From NCBI RefSeq assembly GCF_002214525.1, contig NZ_CP015104.1:930001-994000 (forward strand): DNA of 64,000 bases, written 5' to 3'. Position numbers and translations under genes: made by a program. Source of the DNA: Thermococcus sp. P6 (GTDB lineage Archaea > Methanobacteriota_B > Thermococci > Thermococcales > Thermococcaceae). This document shows positions 25,372-30,508 of the stretch, piece after piece. Numbering within the stretch: the first letter of the stretch is position 1; every line of letters starts with the position of its first letter. The notes under the pieces are model-generated. The model saw only the letters and a program-made list of their open reading frames with translations, was not told the DNA's origin and did not search any database.

Positions 25372-25896
25372 ATGCCCGTGACGACCAAAACCGGAGATAA
25401 GGGTTTGACGGGTCTCTTTACGGGGGACAGGATCGCCAAGTCCTCCCCGATTATCGAGGCCAACGGCACCATAGACGAGCTGGACAGCTTCCTCGGGGAG
25501 GCAAAGCACCACCTCCCGGAGGACATGAGGGCTACCATCGAGAGGATCCAGCTCAGGCTCTACGATATCATGGCGGAACTCGCCAGCAGGGGAAGTTACA
25601 GGAAAATTGAGCCCGGGGATATCCAGTGGCTCGAGGAGCTCATAGAGAGGTACGAGGGGGAAGTTCAGCTGAAGTCCTTCGTCCTTCCGGGGTCGACCGT
25701 CGCCAGTGCAAAGCTTGACGTCTGCAGGGCCGTTACGAGGAGGGCCGAGCGGAGGGTCGCAAAGCTCGTCCTCGAGTACGGTATCGGCCATGACGCACTC
25801 GTTTACCTTAACAGGCTCAGCGATCTCCTCTTCCTGATGGCAAGGGCCATCGAGAAGAGGGAGGGGAAGTTGAGGGAGGTTAAGAACTTTCAGTGA
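25372..25896 (+). CDS. Cob(I)alamin adenosyltransferase, PduO type
   Basis: This 174-residue enzyme transfers the adenosyl group of ATP to cob(I)alamin to make coenzyme B12. The N-terminal TKTGDKGLTGLFTGDRIAKSS loop and IEANGTIDELDSFLGEAK are the ATP-binding signature, and CRAVTRRAERRVAKL and LVYLNRLSDLLFLMAR complete the trimer core. GGTGGT lies 6 bases before the ATG. A TATA-like GGATAAAAATCC is at 25334. It overlaps the convergent MFS gene by 17 bases. Confidence 0.96.
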   Translation: MPVTTKTGDKGLTGLFTGDRIAKSSPIIEANGTIDELDSFLGEAKHHLPEDMRATIERIQLRLYDIMAELASRGSYRKIEPGDIQWLEELIERYEGEVQLKSFVLPGSTVASAKLDVCRAVTRRAERRVAKLVLEYGIGHDALVYLNRLSDLLFLMARAIEKREGKLREVKNFQ

Positions 25897-27130
25897 CGGC
25901 TTCCCCCTTTTCACCGTCTTCCAGCAGTATTTTTCTGTATCTGACGTAATAGCAGGCTATCACGACGGCCTCAACCACCCAGATGGCGAGGGTGACCTTC
26001 CAGGCGGCGTAACGATCGACCAGTGGACCCACCACGATGAGACCAAGGGGTGCCGAGACGTTCGCAAGAAGGGCCAGAGCGGAGAACACCCGGCTTCTGA
26101 GCTCCGTTGGGATCGCCCGCTGAACCTTTGCGTTGAGGGGGACGTTGATTATCGCGCTGCTTACGCCTAAGAGCACCCCCAGTGTTGCCAGTACCATAAA
26201 CGCGGAATCCCGGGGGATGGCTATCAGCGGGGAGATGAGCCCCACGAAACTCAGCATCAGGAGTTCGCTGATGGCCAGCGCCTTGAAGAGATACCTCCCG
26301 GCTTTCTTTCCGAGCTTCACCGCCACGATGAAGTTCCCGAGGAGCATGCCGCCCATGAAGGCGCTCTCGAGCAGTCCGAACTGTCTGCCCGTAAACCTGA
26401 GGACGACCCTGAAGGCGTAGGGCATTATGACCGCGCTAAGGGGCCGGTCAACGGCGTTTATGAAGAGGATGAAGCCGAGCAGCACCATGAGGTAACGGCT
26501 GGAACGCAGAAACGCGAGACCTTCCTTCAAGTCCTCCACTACCTGCCGGGCACTTTCGAGGCCCCTCGTCTTCCATTCGTATCGTATCAGGGCCTCAAAC
26601 AGACCGGAACCGAAGAAGCTGACCGCGTTTATCAGTATGGCCAGCCTTATCCCGCCGAGGGTGTAGATAACCCCACCGAGGGCAGGGCCTACGAGCCAGG
26701 CTATCACGGAGAAAGAGCTGACGGTTGAGTTGGCCCTCTCAAGCTCGTCCGGTTCCACAAGATCGGGGAACATCGCGCTCGTGGCGGCGCCGAAGAACGT
26801 TCCCATGAGGGCCATGATAACCTGAACGGGGAGGAGCTGGTATACCCCGAGGAAGTTGAGGGCCACAACGCCAAAAAGGAGAAGGCCCCTCGCGAGGTCA
26901 AAACCCACCATGAGTCTCTTTCTGTTGTAGCGGTCACCCACGACACCCGCGAAGGGCATGACTATCATGGAGGGGATTACATCGGCCAGAACGAAGAGGG
27001 TCATCACCGTTCCGCTTCCGGTTCTGTCGAGGACGTAGAGGGGCAGCGCAACCTCCTGCACCGCCCAGCCGAGCTCACTGACAAAGCGTCCGATGGCGAA
27101 GAGCCAGAAGTTCCTGCCGGGTCCTTTCAT
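25880..27130 (-). CDS. MFS efflux transporter (MFS_3/EntS-MefA type)
   Basis: This 416-residue membrane protein has about 12 hydrophobic segments. The opening RNFWLFAIGRFVSELGWAVQEVALPLYVLDRTGSG and the cytoplasmic loop GVVGDRYNRKRLMVGFDLARG (MFS motif A) are typical of drug or siderophore exporters. I chose the ATG at 27130 with GGTGAAGGGA upstream; a GTG nine bases earlier is possible. It is the last gene of the ArsR-headed operon. The cargo is unknown. Confidence 0.9.
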   Translation of the reverse strand: MKGPGRNFWLFAIGRFVSELGWAVQEVALPLYVLDRTGSGTVMTLFVLADVIPSMIVMPFAGVVGDRYNRKRLMVGFDLARGLLLFGVVALNFLGVYQLLPVQVIMALMGTFFGAATSAMFPDLVEPDELERANSTVSSFSVIAWLVGPALGGVIYTLGGIRLAILINAVSFFGSGLFEALIRYEWKTRGLESARQVVEDLKEGLAFLRSSRYLMVLLGFILFINAVDRPLSAVIMPYAFRVVLRFTGRQFGLLESAFMGGMLLGNFIVAVKLGKKAGRYLFKALAISELLMLSFVGLISPLIAIPRDSAFMVLATLGVLLGVSSAIINVPLNAKVQRAIPTELRSRVFSALALLANVSAPLGLIVVGPLVDRYAAWKVTLAIWVVEAVVIACYYVRYRKILLEDGEKGEAVTESS

Positions 27131-27142
27131 TCCCTTCACCCG

Positions 27143-27748
27143 CTATGGCTGGGGTGCAAGCTCAACACTCACGCTGCCGTTTACGGTCTTCACCTCCACC
27201 TTGTAGGTTCCGGAGCCTATCAACGGCTCCTCCGGATCGATTCCAACGAACCGCACGCTACCGTTGACCCTCCTAACGCTTATCCTCGCATCGCAGAAGT
27301 CCGAGAGCCGAATGTTCACGTCCCCGTTTACCGTGCTCACATCGATGTCCCCTTCGATCTCTTCCAGGACGATATTAAGCCTTCCGTTGACGGTTCTGGC
27401 CCTGAGGGGGCCGGCAATGGTAAACCGGGCATCGATTTCGCCGTTGATGGTGTCCAGATACTCCGCCCTGCACCCCCTTATGATGACGGTTCCGTTGACG
27501 TTCCTGACCTTCAAAGGGACATTCACCGGAAGTTTTACCTCTATCTCGGCTCCTCCGGAGTTCAGGCCGAAAATCCTCCTTTCGGGTTCCTCCCTTACGA
27601 TGAGCTTCCTTCCCTTCAGCTCTGTCTTCACCTTAACCCTGCCGTGGGTGACGTAGTTAACCTCCACGATATCGCTCTCCCATCCCTCAACCCTCATCCG
27701 GGCGTTGATGCCCCTCAATTCCACCTCTTCAACGTTCTCGAACATCAT
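27143..27748 (-). CDS. DUF4097-like beta-helix protein (putative adhesin fold)
   Basis: This 201-residue protein is built almost wholly of short beta-repeats with the recurring phrase VNG (VRNVNGTVIIRG, DTINGEIDARF, RTVNGRLNIV, STVNGDVNIRL, RRVNGSVRF, KTVNGSVSVEL). This periodicity of about 20 residues is diagnostic of DUF4097/GIN-type right-handed beta-helices. There is no signal peptide, so it is probably cytoplasmic or on the inner membrane face. Two adjacent ATGs (27748, 27745) follow a GGAGGGAGGGGG tract. It sits between the membrane gene and the MFS gene of the operon. In bacteria such proteins often accompany envelope-stress regulators. Confidence 0.85.
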   Translation of the reverse strand: MMFENVEEVELRGINARMRVEGWESDIVEVNYVTHGRVKVKTELKGRKLIVREEPERRIFGLNSGGAEIEVKLPVNVPLKVRNVNGTVIIRGCRAEYLDTINGEIDARFTIAGPLRARTVNGRLNIVLEEIEGDIDVSTVNGDVNIRLSDFCDARISVRRVNGSVRFVGIDPEEPLIGSGTYKVEVKTVNGSVSVELAPQP

Positions 27749-27795
27749 CCCCCTCCCTCCGCTTACATCATCCAAAAAAGGAAATCGAAGGGACG

Positions 27796-29097
27796 TTACT
27801 CGAGGTATCCGGTCAGCTCGTCGAGGAGTTCCCTCACGCGCTTCCGGAGCAGCGTCCTGTCTATTCCGAGGCCCTCTATCAAACCGGCGCTCTGCTCCTC
27901 GACTATTTCCCGGGCTTTGTCCATGACGAGCCTGTAAGCTCCGGGGTTCTTCAGGTAGTGGGTCTTTCCGCCGGCCCTTATCCTCACGCTCCCTTCCCGG
28001 GCGGAGATCACCGCATCCCCTATGCGTATCTTCGCCCTTCCCCTGCCGACAACCACGGATATGTCACTGGAGCGCAGGGAAACGGTCTCGCCGAGGCTCA
28101 GCACCTCGTCCCCGCTTCTGTAGGTTACCCTCTCGCCTTCGACCTCGATGGAGTACTCCTCCGTCTGGACCATCAGCCTGTCGCCCACTTTCGTCAGCTG
28201 GAAGCCGTTGCGAAGCTCCCTGACCGTTATGGCCTCCTTGGGAATCGTTTCAGGAGTGCCCTCGCGGAACCTCAGGGGGCCTATTCTGACCTCTTCCCCC
28301 GTGGGGCTTTCAATGACCTCGATGAAGGGAAGCCTGACGTACTCGAAGCCCTCGCCCTCGTAGACCTTGATTATCCCCAGATCGACAGCGTTGCCTTTCT
28401 TATCCTTCCGGTAGATTTTCCCGACCTTCAGGAGCTCGTTCGTCCTTTCCACGAAGGCCGGATCTGCCGAAGCCTTCCTTCCGGCTATGTCACGCTCCGT
28501 CCAGACCACGAAGGGGCTCAGGAGTTTTCTGGTTATCCTCCCGATGGGGGTCTCGGCGTGGAGTGTTACGTTCCCGTCCACGACGTAGCCAACCCTCTTC
28601 CGCCCGAACTTTACCGGGTAGGCCTTTCCGGTCCCCTCGAGCCCGATGTTGCCAAACTCCGCCCCGTTGAACTCGTAGGCCTTTCTCTCCACCTTCAGAT
28701 CGAGGCTCTTTTCGTCGAACTTCGCCAGCAGGAGCCCGGCTATGGCGAGGACCACCGAGTAGGCAAAGGCCGTTCCGGCGTAACCATGAAGTTCTTCGGA
28801 CATTCCCAGCCACCGGCCGAAGAACAGGAAGACGCTCGTCCAGAAGGAGCCCTTGGCGAGGGCGAAGATTACCCCGCTAACCGTTACCCCGAACCACCTT
28901 CCCACGCTCAGCAGTTCGAAGGCAAACAGGAGCGCAACTATTGAATAAACCAGCCAGTCGTTGTATTTTCCAAGCCTGAGGGGGTCCCTGAAAAGCCAGA
29001 TGATGAGGAGCACCGCCGCGATAGCCTTCAGATACCCGGCGAGTTTAAACCTCGGGCTCTCATGGGCAAATGCTCTGTGGTTCCAGTAAAAACTCAT
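27796..29097 (-). CDS. Membrane protein with large cytosolic beta-rich domain, unknown
   Basis: This 433-residue protein has four hydrophobic segments within residues 20-150 (YLKAIAAVLLIIWLF, WLVYSIVALLFAFELL, GVTVSGVIFALAKG with FWTSVFLFFG, FAYSVVLAIAGLLLA). A roughly 280-residue soluble part follows, rich in short beta strands (ITVRELRNGFQLTKVGDRLMV, VSLRSSDISVVVGRGRAKIRIG), with a helical C-terminus (DELTGYLE). I do not recognise the family. It overlaps the ArsR gene by 4 bases and precedes the DUF4097 gene, so the regulator, this protein and the beta-helix are translated together. Confidence 0.75.
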   Translation of the reverse strand: MSFYWNHRAFAHESPRFKLAGYLKAIAAVLLIIWLFRDPLRLGKYNDWLVYSIVALLFAFELLSVGRWFGVTVSGVIFALAKGSFWTSVFLFFGRWLGMSEELHGYAGTAFAYSVVLAIAGLLLAKFDEKSLDLKVERKAYEFNGAEFGNIGLEGTGKAYPVKFGRKRVGYVVDGNVTLHAETPIGRITRKLLSPFVVWTERDIAGRKASADPAFVERTNELLKVGKIYRKDKKGNAVDLGIIKVYEGEGFEYVRLPFIEVIESPTGEEVRIGPLRFREGTPETIPKEAITVRELRNGFQLTKVGDRLMVQTEEYSIEVEGERVTYRSGDEVLSLGETVSLRSSDISVVVGRGRAKIRIGDAVISAREGSVRIRAGGKTHYLKNPGAYRLVMDKAREIVEEQSAGLIEGLGIDRTLLRKRVRELLDELTGYLE

Positions 29098-29504
29098 TCT
29101 TCCACCTCCAGTGCGGTTATTATCTCAAGCAGGCGCAAAAACAAACGTCCGTCGGGCGATATCCGGTATTTACCGGTTTTCCTCACCATTCCCGTCCTTA
29201 CGAGGAGCTTCAGGTGATGGGAAACGGTTGGGCTTTCGACCTTCAGGGCTTCCTTTATCTCCTTGAAGCCCATGTCCTCACGGGAGAGCATCTTCAGTAT
29301 CCTTATCCTGTCGGGATTGGCGAGGGCCTTCAGGATTTTTGCCGCCTTCTCCTCGTCAACCTCCGGGAGCGTCCCCCCTTCGAGCTTCAGTCTGAGGCGC
29401 GTCTTGAGGGAGAGCATTATCTCGTCCACGGGATCTATGCTCTCCTCCAGCACTTCCAGACGTTTCTTAAGTTCCTCAAGCTGGGCCCTCAGATCGTTTT
29501 CCAT
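29094..29504 (-). CDS. ArsR-family transcriptional regulator with N-terminal coiled coil
   Basis: This 136-residue protein has an N-terminal helical coiled coil (RAQLEELKKRLEVLEES, residues 6-25). A winged helix follows (KILKALANPDRIRILKMLS, FKEIKEALKVESPTVSHHLKLLVRTGMVRKTGKYRISPDGRLFL). No CxC-type metal site is present, so it is not a classical arsenic or metal sensor. GGTGGTAGC precedes the ATG. It heads the four-gene operon, and an inverted repeat over its own TATA box suggests autorepression. Confidence 0.88.
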   Translation of the reverse strand: MENDLRAQLEELKKRLEVLEESIDPVDEIMLSLKTRLRLKLEGGTLPEVDEEKAAKILKALANPDRIRILKMLSREDMGFKEIKEALKVESPTVSHHLKLLVRTGMVRKTGKYRISPDGRLFLRLLEIITALEVEE

Positions 29505-29528
29505 GCTACCACCGGGTACAGGTTTTTG

Positions 29529-29548
29529 TAGTATATTTTTCTGTACTA
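29529..29548. promoter_or_regulatory. Inverted repeat over the ArsR-operon TATA box
   Basis: TAGTA-N10-TACTA spans the minus-strand TATA element (AAAAATATAC) lying about 25-40 bases before the regulator's ATG. It is a natural candidate operator for the ArsR-type protein encoded next to it. A plus-strand TATA box (TATATATAA at 29564-29572) for the divergent AEC gene lies close by, so both promoters could respond. Confidence 0.6.
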
Positions 29549-29626
29549 AACTGGGGTGAGAGGTATATATAAATTTATCGGCCTGTGTGCCAAAAACGTT
29601 TTAACGCTTAAATCTAAGTCTCAACC

Positions 29627-30508
29627 ATGGACGTCTACGAGATGCTCGCCCTCATAGCCCTCGGCTACGTTCTTAAGAGACTCATAAAGAGGGATGACGT
29701 ATTCAGGTGGCTCAACCTGTTCTCAACCAGATTCCTCCTCACGCTCTTCGTTTTCGGCAACGTGGCCAGCAAGGACCTGAATTACCTCATAAGCATAAAG
29801 CCCGTCTTCGTCTACGTTTTCCTTGTGATAGCCCTGAGCCTCGGTTTCTCCTACGCCTACGTCCGCCTTTTCGTCTCCGATGAAAGGTGGGCCGGGGCGC
29901 TCATGATACTCTCAACCTATCCCAACACGGCCGCGATGGGCTTTCCGATAGCGAGCCTCTTCCTCGATGACATAACTCCCGCCATACTCTACTCAACCAC
30001 GAACAGCCTCGTAGTCCTTCCACTGGCGACTTTCATAGCCGCCCATTACTCGAGCGGTAAGGCCTCGCTGAGGAAGAGCTTCCTCGGGGCCCTAAAGTTT
30101 CCTCCGACGGTGGCAAACCTTCTGGCCCTTTTCCTCGTTCTTCTCGGGGTGAGTCTTCCGGGGTGGCTGATAGAACCCATCAAATCCATCGGCTGGTGGA
30201 GCATACCCCTGCTTCTGGTGTACTTTGGCACCATAATGAACCTGAGGGAGTTCAGGTGGAGGCATCTGATTGAAGTCGGGCTCTTCAGGAGCGTTCTTCC
30301 GTTCCTCTTCGTCTTCCTGACCCTGAGGGGTTCCGGTGATGTGTACGTTGCCGTCCTCGTGGAATCCTCCATGCCCCCGGCGATAATGGCGAACGTTATA
30401 CTTTCCCACTACGACCTCAGGGCGGAGGAGGCGGTAGGCGTGACGGTGGTTCTGACGCTCCTTGTACTGGTGTTTTTCCTCGCCGTTGCTTCCCTGACCC
30501 TTCCATGA
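29627..30508 (+). CDS. AEC-family (auxin efflux carrier-like) transporter
   Basis: This 293-residue membrane protein has about ten hydrophobic helices arranged as two five-helix halves. ILSTYPNTAAMGFPIASLF near residue 105 is the conserved AEC motif, and MPPAIMANVILSHYD near the C-terminus is the second. Microbial members export small organic or amino acids such as malate. There is no clear ribosome site before the ATG (TCAACC), so it may be leaderless or have a short leader. It is divergent from the ArsR operon. Confidence 0.88.
   Translation: MDVYEMLALIALGYVLKRLIKRDDVFRWLNLFSTRFLLTLFVFGNVASKDLNYLISIKPVFVYVFLVIALSLGFSYAYVRLFVSDERWAGALMILSTYPNTAAMGFPIASLFLDDITPAILYSTTNSLVVLPLATFIAAHYSSGKASLRKSFLGALKFPPTVANLLALFLVLLGVSLPGWLIEPIKSIGWWSIPLLLVYFGTIMNLREFRWRHLIEVGLFRSVLPFLFVFLTLRGSGDVYVAVLVESSMPPAIMANVILSHYDLRAEEAVGVTVVLTLLVLVFFLAVASLTLP

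Follow-up and report, generated by a model that had tools for sequence, protein, structure and literature searches.

An ArsR-headed exporter operon conserved in Thermococcales, in which a membrane protein probably partners the putative repressor

Introduction

The nearest described circuit in the order Thermococcales is that of TFB-RF1/PF1089 from Pyrococcus furiosus, which combines autoregulation with a few extra targets that include a multidrug-type ABC exporter (PMC5937170). The operon presented here resembles this circuit in that a small regulator shares its transcription unit with a four-transmembrane (TM) protein of no assigned function, a palindromic site is conserved across the order, and autoregulation appears to be accompanied by only a few further targets. 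In contrast to the present locus, TFB-RF1 is an activator that has its motif, TCTGAANTTCAGA, upstream of a weak BRE, while the operon described here displays TACA-N6-TGTA twice, downstream of a strong BRE/TATA, and starts with the regulator gene. A second regulator, Phr of P. furiosus, binds 29 bp over the transcription start (PMC6316755). Phr, a heat-shock repressor, is also of the ArsR type and its site, like the one reported below, is about 30 bp long and lies over the start (predicted in our case), but it differs in its C-terminal BAG-like part, its heat-shock regulon and its motif. We know of no membrane partner gene for Phr.

In Bacillus subtilis SdpR is an ArsR autorepressor, and the membrane protein encoded downstream, SdpI, is thought to sequester it. 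The present operon likewise encodes an ArsR protein with a membrane protein downstream, for which autorepression and sequestration are proposed; in contrast to SdpR/SdpI, however, this membrane protein is unmatched in Pfam and no toxin gene was seen. DHA3-type drug exporters under local repressors also consist of a TIGR00900 MFS protein behind its regulator, although here two extra conserved genes separate regulator and pump. Finally, according to one proposal Toastrack (DUF4097) forms a platform inside the cell, beneath the membrane, and is found together with TM sensors and HTH regulators (PMC11237479). The Psp/Lia and HAAS-PadR Toastrack systems share with this locus a small HTH regulator, a multi-TM protein and a Toastrack protein, and a kinase-free dyad logic (PMC11237479), but there the regulator is PadR rather than ArsR, the membrane proteins are unrelated by the tests that were run, and PspA is missing from the genome studied here.

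Here we describe a real, conserved exporter operon whose putative repressor is likely to have a membrane protein as its partner. The system is apparently undescribed, as no paper on the operon was found in the open-access literature searched. An initial annotation had considered the response new to archaea; the literature search agrees with this for the operon itself, but its general style is similar to that of TFB-RF1/PF1089.

Results

The window, a stretch of 64,000 nucleotides, spans positions 930001-994000 of a 1.52-Mb single-contig Thermococcales genome. On its minus strand one promoter serves the genes for, in order, an ArsR-type regulator, a four-helix membrane protein, a DUF4097 protein and a DHA3-type MFS exporter. 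The regulator (29094-29504; 136 aa) consists of a charged N-terminal helix followed by a wHTH (residues 61-110) and is devoid of cysteines. The membrane protein (27796-29097; 433 aa) comprises four TM helices and a soluble domain of about 300 residues, and its start overlaps the arsR stop by 4 nt (ATGA), consistent with the translational coupling of the two genes claimed in the initial annotation. The DUF4097 (Toastrack, PF13349) protein (27143-27748; about 200 aa) and the MFS exporter (25880-27139; 419 aa; PF07690 and TIGR00900, drug:H+ antiporter type) are both present downstream, as had been reported, although the exporter gene lies beyond the interval then assigned to the operon.

Full-strength matches to the membrane protein were obtained for 70 of the 94 Thermococcales genomes searched (the raw count of 71 includes G082, excluded as a weak 48-residue match), and an ArsR orthologue is present in the same 70. 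Neither protein occurs in g6 or in any of the 13 genomes of genus g4, and most of g5 lacks both. Within the window's genus 57 of 61 genomes contain the operon, and three of the four without it are less than 90% complete. ArsR is encoded directly upstream of the membrane protein in each of the 57 loci inspected (57 genomes); the DUF4097 gene follows in 56, with G002 retaining a 36-residue remnant and the rest of the operon; and an MFS gene is found downstream wherever the retrieved flank was long enough. The genes thus remain together in the relatives inspected, which supports the earlier description of a self-contained, apparently autoregulated unit. The number of genes is not fixed at four as had been supposed, however, since relatives add a second MFS gene (at least 11 loci) and/or a second DUF4097-like gene (at least nine).

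The second DUF4097-like protein (MAVRFEGIEEVWMKLVD...) is diverged. At least nine relatives carry its gene before that for DUF4097, for example at 2924-3535 of L013 and 2888-3616 of L021 (both plus strand), and also L046 and L049, in reversed orientation. The L033 copy has no Pfam match. In many relatives, but not in the window, an ORF of 30-48 codons separates the membrane gene from the DUF4097 genes (L003 2808-2945, L008 2809-2946 and L018 2799-2945, plus strand; also L013, L021, L039, L040 and L053). It ends in (G)HERPLFDF...EG(W/L)(L/I), reaches or overlaps the next start codon, and has the appearance of a leader peptide or a conserved microprotein.

When the phylum was searched with a profile, ten further genomes of the class proved to encode homologues of the soluble domain. 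Where the neighbourhood was intact, the distant homologues that were read are 515-533 aa in length, contain more TM segments and adjoin an ArsR of the same layout; their relation to the membrane protein is evident from hhalign (probability 97.8%, E 1e-12). In these lineages neither an MFS nor a DUF4097 gene lies beside the pair, indicating that the regulator and the membrane protein are more constant than the exporter part. A gene for a zinc-ribbon-like protein of 114-130 aa, possibly an extra sensor part, is inserted between the ArsR and membrane genes in L093 (2388-2777), L094 (3510-3887) and L095 (6527-6871), and is absent from L097 and L098.

Comparison of 59 distinct operon loci revealed the control region, all elements of which are given on the minus strand. 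The BRE and TATA box, CCGATAAATTTATATATA, occupy 29564-29581; TATATA is invariant and CCGATAAA is 90-100% conserved. The aligned upstream block reads ACCGATAAACTTTTATATA (BRE and TATA), 17 bp, GTACAGAAAATTGTACTACAAAAATCTGTAC, the ribosome-binding sequence GGTGGT and ATG. In the window the 31-bp operator, GTACAGAAAAATATACTACAAAAACCTGTAC (29516-29546), thus begins 17 bp downstream of the conserved TATA, and is built from two TACA-N6-TGTA palindromes. Palindrome 1 (29532-29545) is TACA-N6-TATA in the window and TACA-N6-TGTA in most relatives, as seen in the alignment of upstream regions, while palindrome 2 (29517-29530), centred 15 bp from palindrome 1, is the only perfect TACA-N6-TGTA in the window. 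Over the 59 loci mean column identity is 0.956 for the operator and 0.99 for its half-sites, compared with 0.70 for the spacer and 0.42 for the flank upstream of the BRE. The GGTGGT (29508-29513) is conserved in relatives and agrees with the Thermococcus kodakarensis ribosome-binding consensus GGDGRD. In T. kodakarensis promoters TATA and BRE are found about 23 and 33 bp, respectively, before the transcription start, a rule with which the placement of the BRE/TATA agrees (PMC4247193). The 23-bp spacing predicts a start at about 29541 (29538-29544), within palindrome 1; the operator, which overlaps this predicted start, would therefore span about -5 to +26.

The initial annotation had reported an inverted repeat, TAGTA-N10-TACTA, covering the TATA of the operon. 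The repeat does exist, as a single occurrence at 29529-29548, but the BRE/TATA sits at 29564-29581, and an operator over the TATA is ruled out by the comparison of the 59 loci. The ‘TATA’ within the repeat is the degenerate right half-site of palindrome 1, which is TGTAC in nearly all relatives; the earlier assignment arose because this half-site reads TATA for TGTA in the window. Perfect 5-bp arms with 10-bp spacing occur 73 times in the window and thus, without comparison, the reported repeat is no better than chance. It does, however, form part of the 31-bp element kept in operon-bearing genomes.

A search of the 94 genomes with the operator pattern, allowing two mismatches, returned matches in 68, all of which are operon holders and usually contain one copy, compared with one match in 94 genomes for the reversed pattern that served as control. 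The window's genome contains no strong site other than the operon copy. In G057 and G060 the region is interrupted by a contig break and the matches were counted as operon copies, while those in G030, G034, G067 and G068 lack A-rich cores and look like chance. A second full-length operator, with the same TATA-operator spacing as in the operon, is present in three relatives. In G018 and G045 it precedes an ABC exporter whose membrane and ATPase domains are fused; in G037 it is followed by an 86-aa ORF and then by the genes of an MFS exporter and an RDD membrane protein. The placement of the extra copies, twice before an ABC and once before an MFS exporter, supports the export function proposed at the outset and, as far as seen, the predicted regulon is small and made of exporters.

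Two side observations concern the operator and its surroundings. In loci L083 and L085, from two Thermococcales genomes, the ABC exporter with fused domains stands behind a near-perfect operator, and in L083 it is followed downstream by an apparent IS607-type recombinase and a TnpB-like gene. In the window GCCAAAAACGTTTTAACGCTTAAATC lies within 29582-29626, upstream of a divergent AEC-type transporter gene (29627-30508, plus strand), and several relatives (L003, L005, L006, L019 and L022) likewise have it beside the AEC gene, so that it may serve to regulate the transporter itself.

Two other readings of the conserved block were considered. As it lies partly within the predicted 5' UTR the block could be an RNA leader element rather than a DNA operator. 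This is barely credible, as the predicted start falls inside palindrome 1 and the block also precedes unrelated genes at differing distances from the start codon. Furthermore, the operon leaders displayed no stable fold at 80 C and no Rfam match, and a DNA site is therefore preferred. The second reading, in which ArsR activates the operon by recruiting TFB, draws on TFB-RF1/PF1089, where a regulator paired with a 4-TM protein also targets a multidrug-type ABC exporter (PMC5937170). It is very unlikely to apply, as the operator follows a strong, conserved BRE/TATA and covers the predicted start, whereas TFB-RF1 sites are upstream of a weak BRE; in addition, the two one-mismatch matches to TCTGAANTTCAGA in the genome are both away from this locus.

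The wHTH of the regulator matches Pfam HTH_5 (48.4 bits; cut-off 22) and the protein matches NF033788 (59.3 bits; cut-off 55), while the SdpR profile is its second best NCBIfam match, at 46.7 bits below the cut-off of 100. The subfamily HTH_metalloreg is also above cut-off and, together with membership of the ArsR family, could point to a metal-responsive operon; some MFS genes of T. gammatolerans are indeed upregulated by Cd, Zn and Ni (PMC3407056). However, no cysteine was found in any of the 53 distinct ArsR orthologues examined, in conflict with the metalloregulator branch, and the C-terminal helix of the window ArsR contains no histidine. The MFS protein, moreover, belongs to a drug antiporter family, and no tie was found between this operon and the cadmium-response MFS and ArsR genes of T. 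gammatolerans (PMC3407056). A metal sensor was discarded on the absence of cysteines from the orthologues, and we regard metal control of the operon as highly improbable. These data, with the charged N-terminal helix region, bear out the earlier view of an ArsR-type protein without metal cysteines. A role in anti-phage defence was also rejected, as the PADLOC matches to ArsR were at the level of the wHTH (Csa3 and similar) and the other three proteins were unmatched.

The membrane protein is predicted to contain TM helices at residues 15-35, 43-63, 73-97 and 107-129, and belongs to no family in Pfam or NCBIfam, in line with its initial description as an unrecognised four-helix membrane protein. 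AlphaFold models of moderate quality (pLDDT 73-74; pTM 0.52 for the one with pLDDT 73) display, besides the four TM helices, a beta domain, a series of short beta strands and a pair of helices at the C-terminus, with low confidence in the strongly conserved stretch 225-282. Fold searches of two of these models against the PDB returned nothing with E below 0.001; a viral-model fold match (E 3.3e-4) was judged chance, its TM-score being below 0.2. The sole match to a solved structure is a weak profile match to the NfeD homologue 2exd_A (E 0.008 over 44 residues). The charges of the loops, by the positive-inside pattern, favour an N-in/C-in topology, in which the soluble domain would face the DNA side and is thus most likely cytoplasmic.

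The DUF4097 protein (PF13349, 32.2 bits; cut-off 22.9) is the only one in the genome, and neither a signal peptide nor a TM segment was seen in its sequence. The exporter scores 115 bits against PF07690 and 330.4 bits against TIGR00900 (curated cut-off 319.6). The assignment of DUF4097 to Toastrack, the proposed sub-membrane platform (PMC11237479), and weak LiaG/LiaX matches (NCBIfam) invite comparison with a Psp/Lia-type envelope stress system. An archaeal system of this type is nevertheless improbable. No PspA (PF04012) match was found in the genome, the same search being positive in nine of 14 control genomes. The membrane protein showed no LiaI-LiaF-TM, PspC or HAAS domain in Pfam or NCBIfam searches, and its soluble domain is not detectably Toastrack, with an hhalign probability of 4-5% against DUF4097. 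The regulator is an ArsR, neither PadR nor LiaR, and in G002 the rest of the operon is kept with only a remnant of DUF4097.

Discussion

The locus is slightly more likely than not to be an autorepressed exporter operon whose ArsR repressor is probably controlled by the membrane protein, a view drawn from sequence comparison. Each palindrome would be occupied by one of two adjacent ArsR dimers, in the same position as Phr in Pyrococcus, where they would block the loading of RNA polymerase and leave the TBP and TFB sites free. The membrane protein, whose synthesis the ATGA overlap would match to that of ArsR, would act as a sensor or tether. Upon membrane disturbance, or in the presence of a membrane-active compound, its soluble domain may bind ArsR or pull it off the operator, switching on the operon. 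This would increase the supply of membrane protein, sub-membrane DUF4097 scaffold and MFS pump, and the pump would ease the stress, closing the loop. The order of the two genes, their overlap and their co-occurrence are the grounds for proposing that ArsR and the membrane protein are in contact.

Ligand-binding autorepressors are common in efflux operons, and the targets seen here are exporters. The main rival view, to which we give a clearly minor share of belief, is therefore that ArsR itself binds the inducer, a hydrophobic compound, and the membrane protein is an effector that stabilizes the membrane or assists the pump. The regulator, however, consists of an N-terminal helix and a wHTH, with no extra ligand domain. 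Furthermore, in distant lineages the pair persists with no exporter beside it, which is more in keeping with a partner of ArsR than with an accessory to the pump. A dyad is favoured because the two genes overlap, co-occur without exception in the genomes studied and persist without an adjacent exporter in other lineages. In a more far-reaching form, which we hold with slightly less than even confidence, the dyad model describes an undescribed kinase-free archaeal pair of an ArsR repressor with an N-terminal helix and a multi-helix membrane protein with a new family of soluble domain. The membrane protein would sense the condition of the membrane and itself release or capture ArsR, and Thermococcaceae would have added a Toastrack scaffold and an exporter to the pair.

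The dyad model could be tested directly if a tractable species such as T. kodakarensis carries the operon. The sensing of membrane damage or toxic hydrophobic compounds by archaea is largely uncharted, and the operon provides a compact candidate circuit for it, in which the 31-bp site is defined, the start point is predicted and the membrane protein represents a family without an assigned function.
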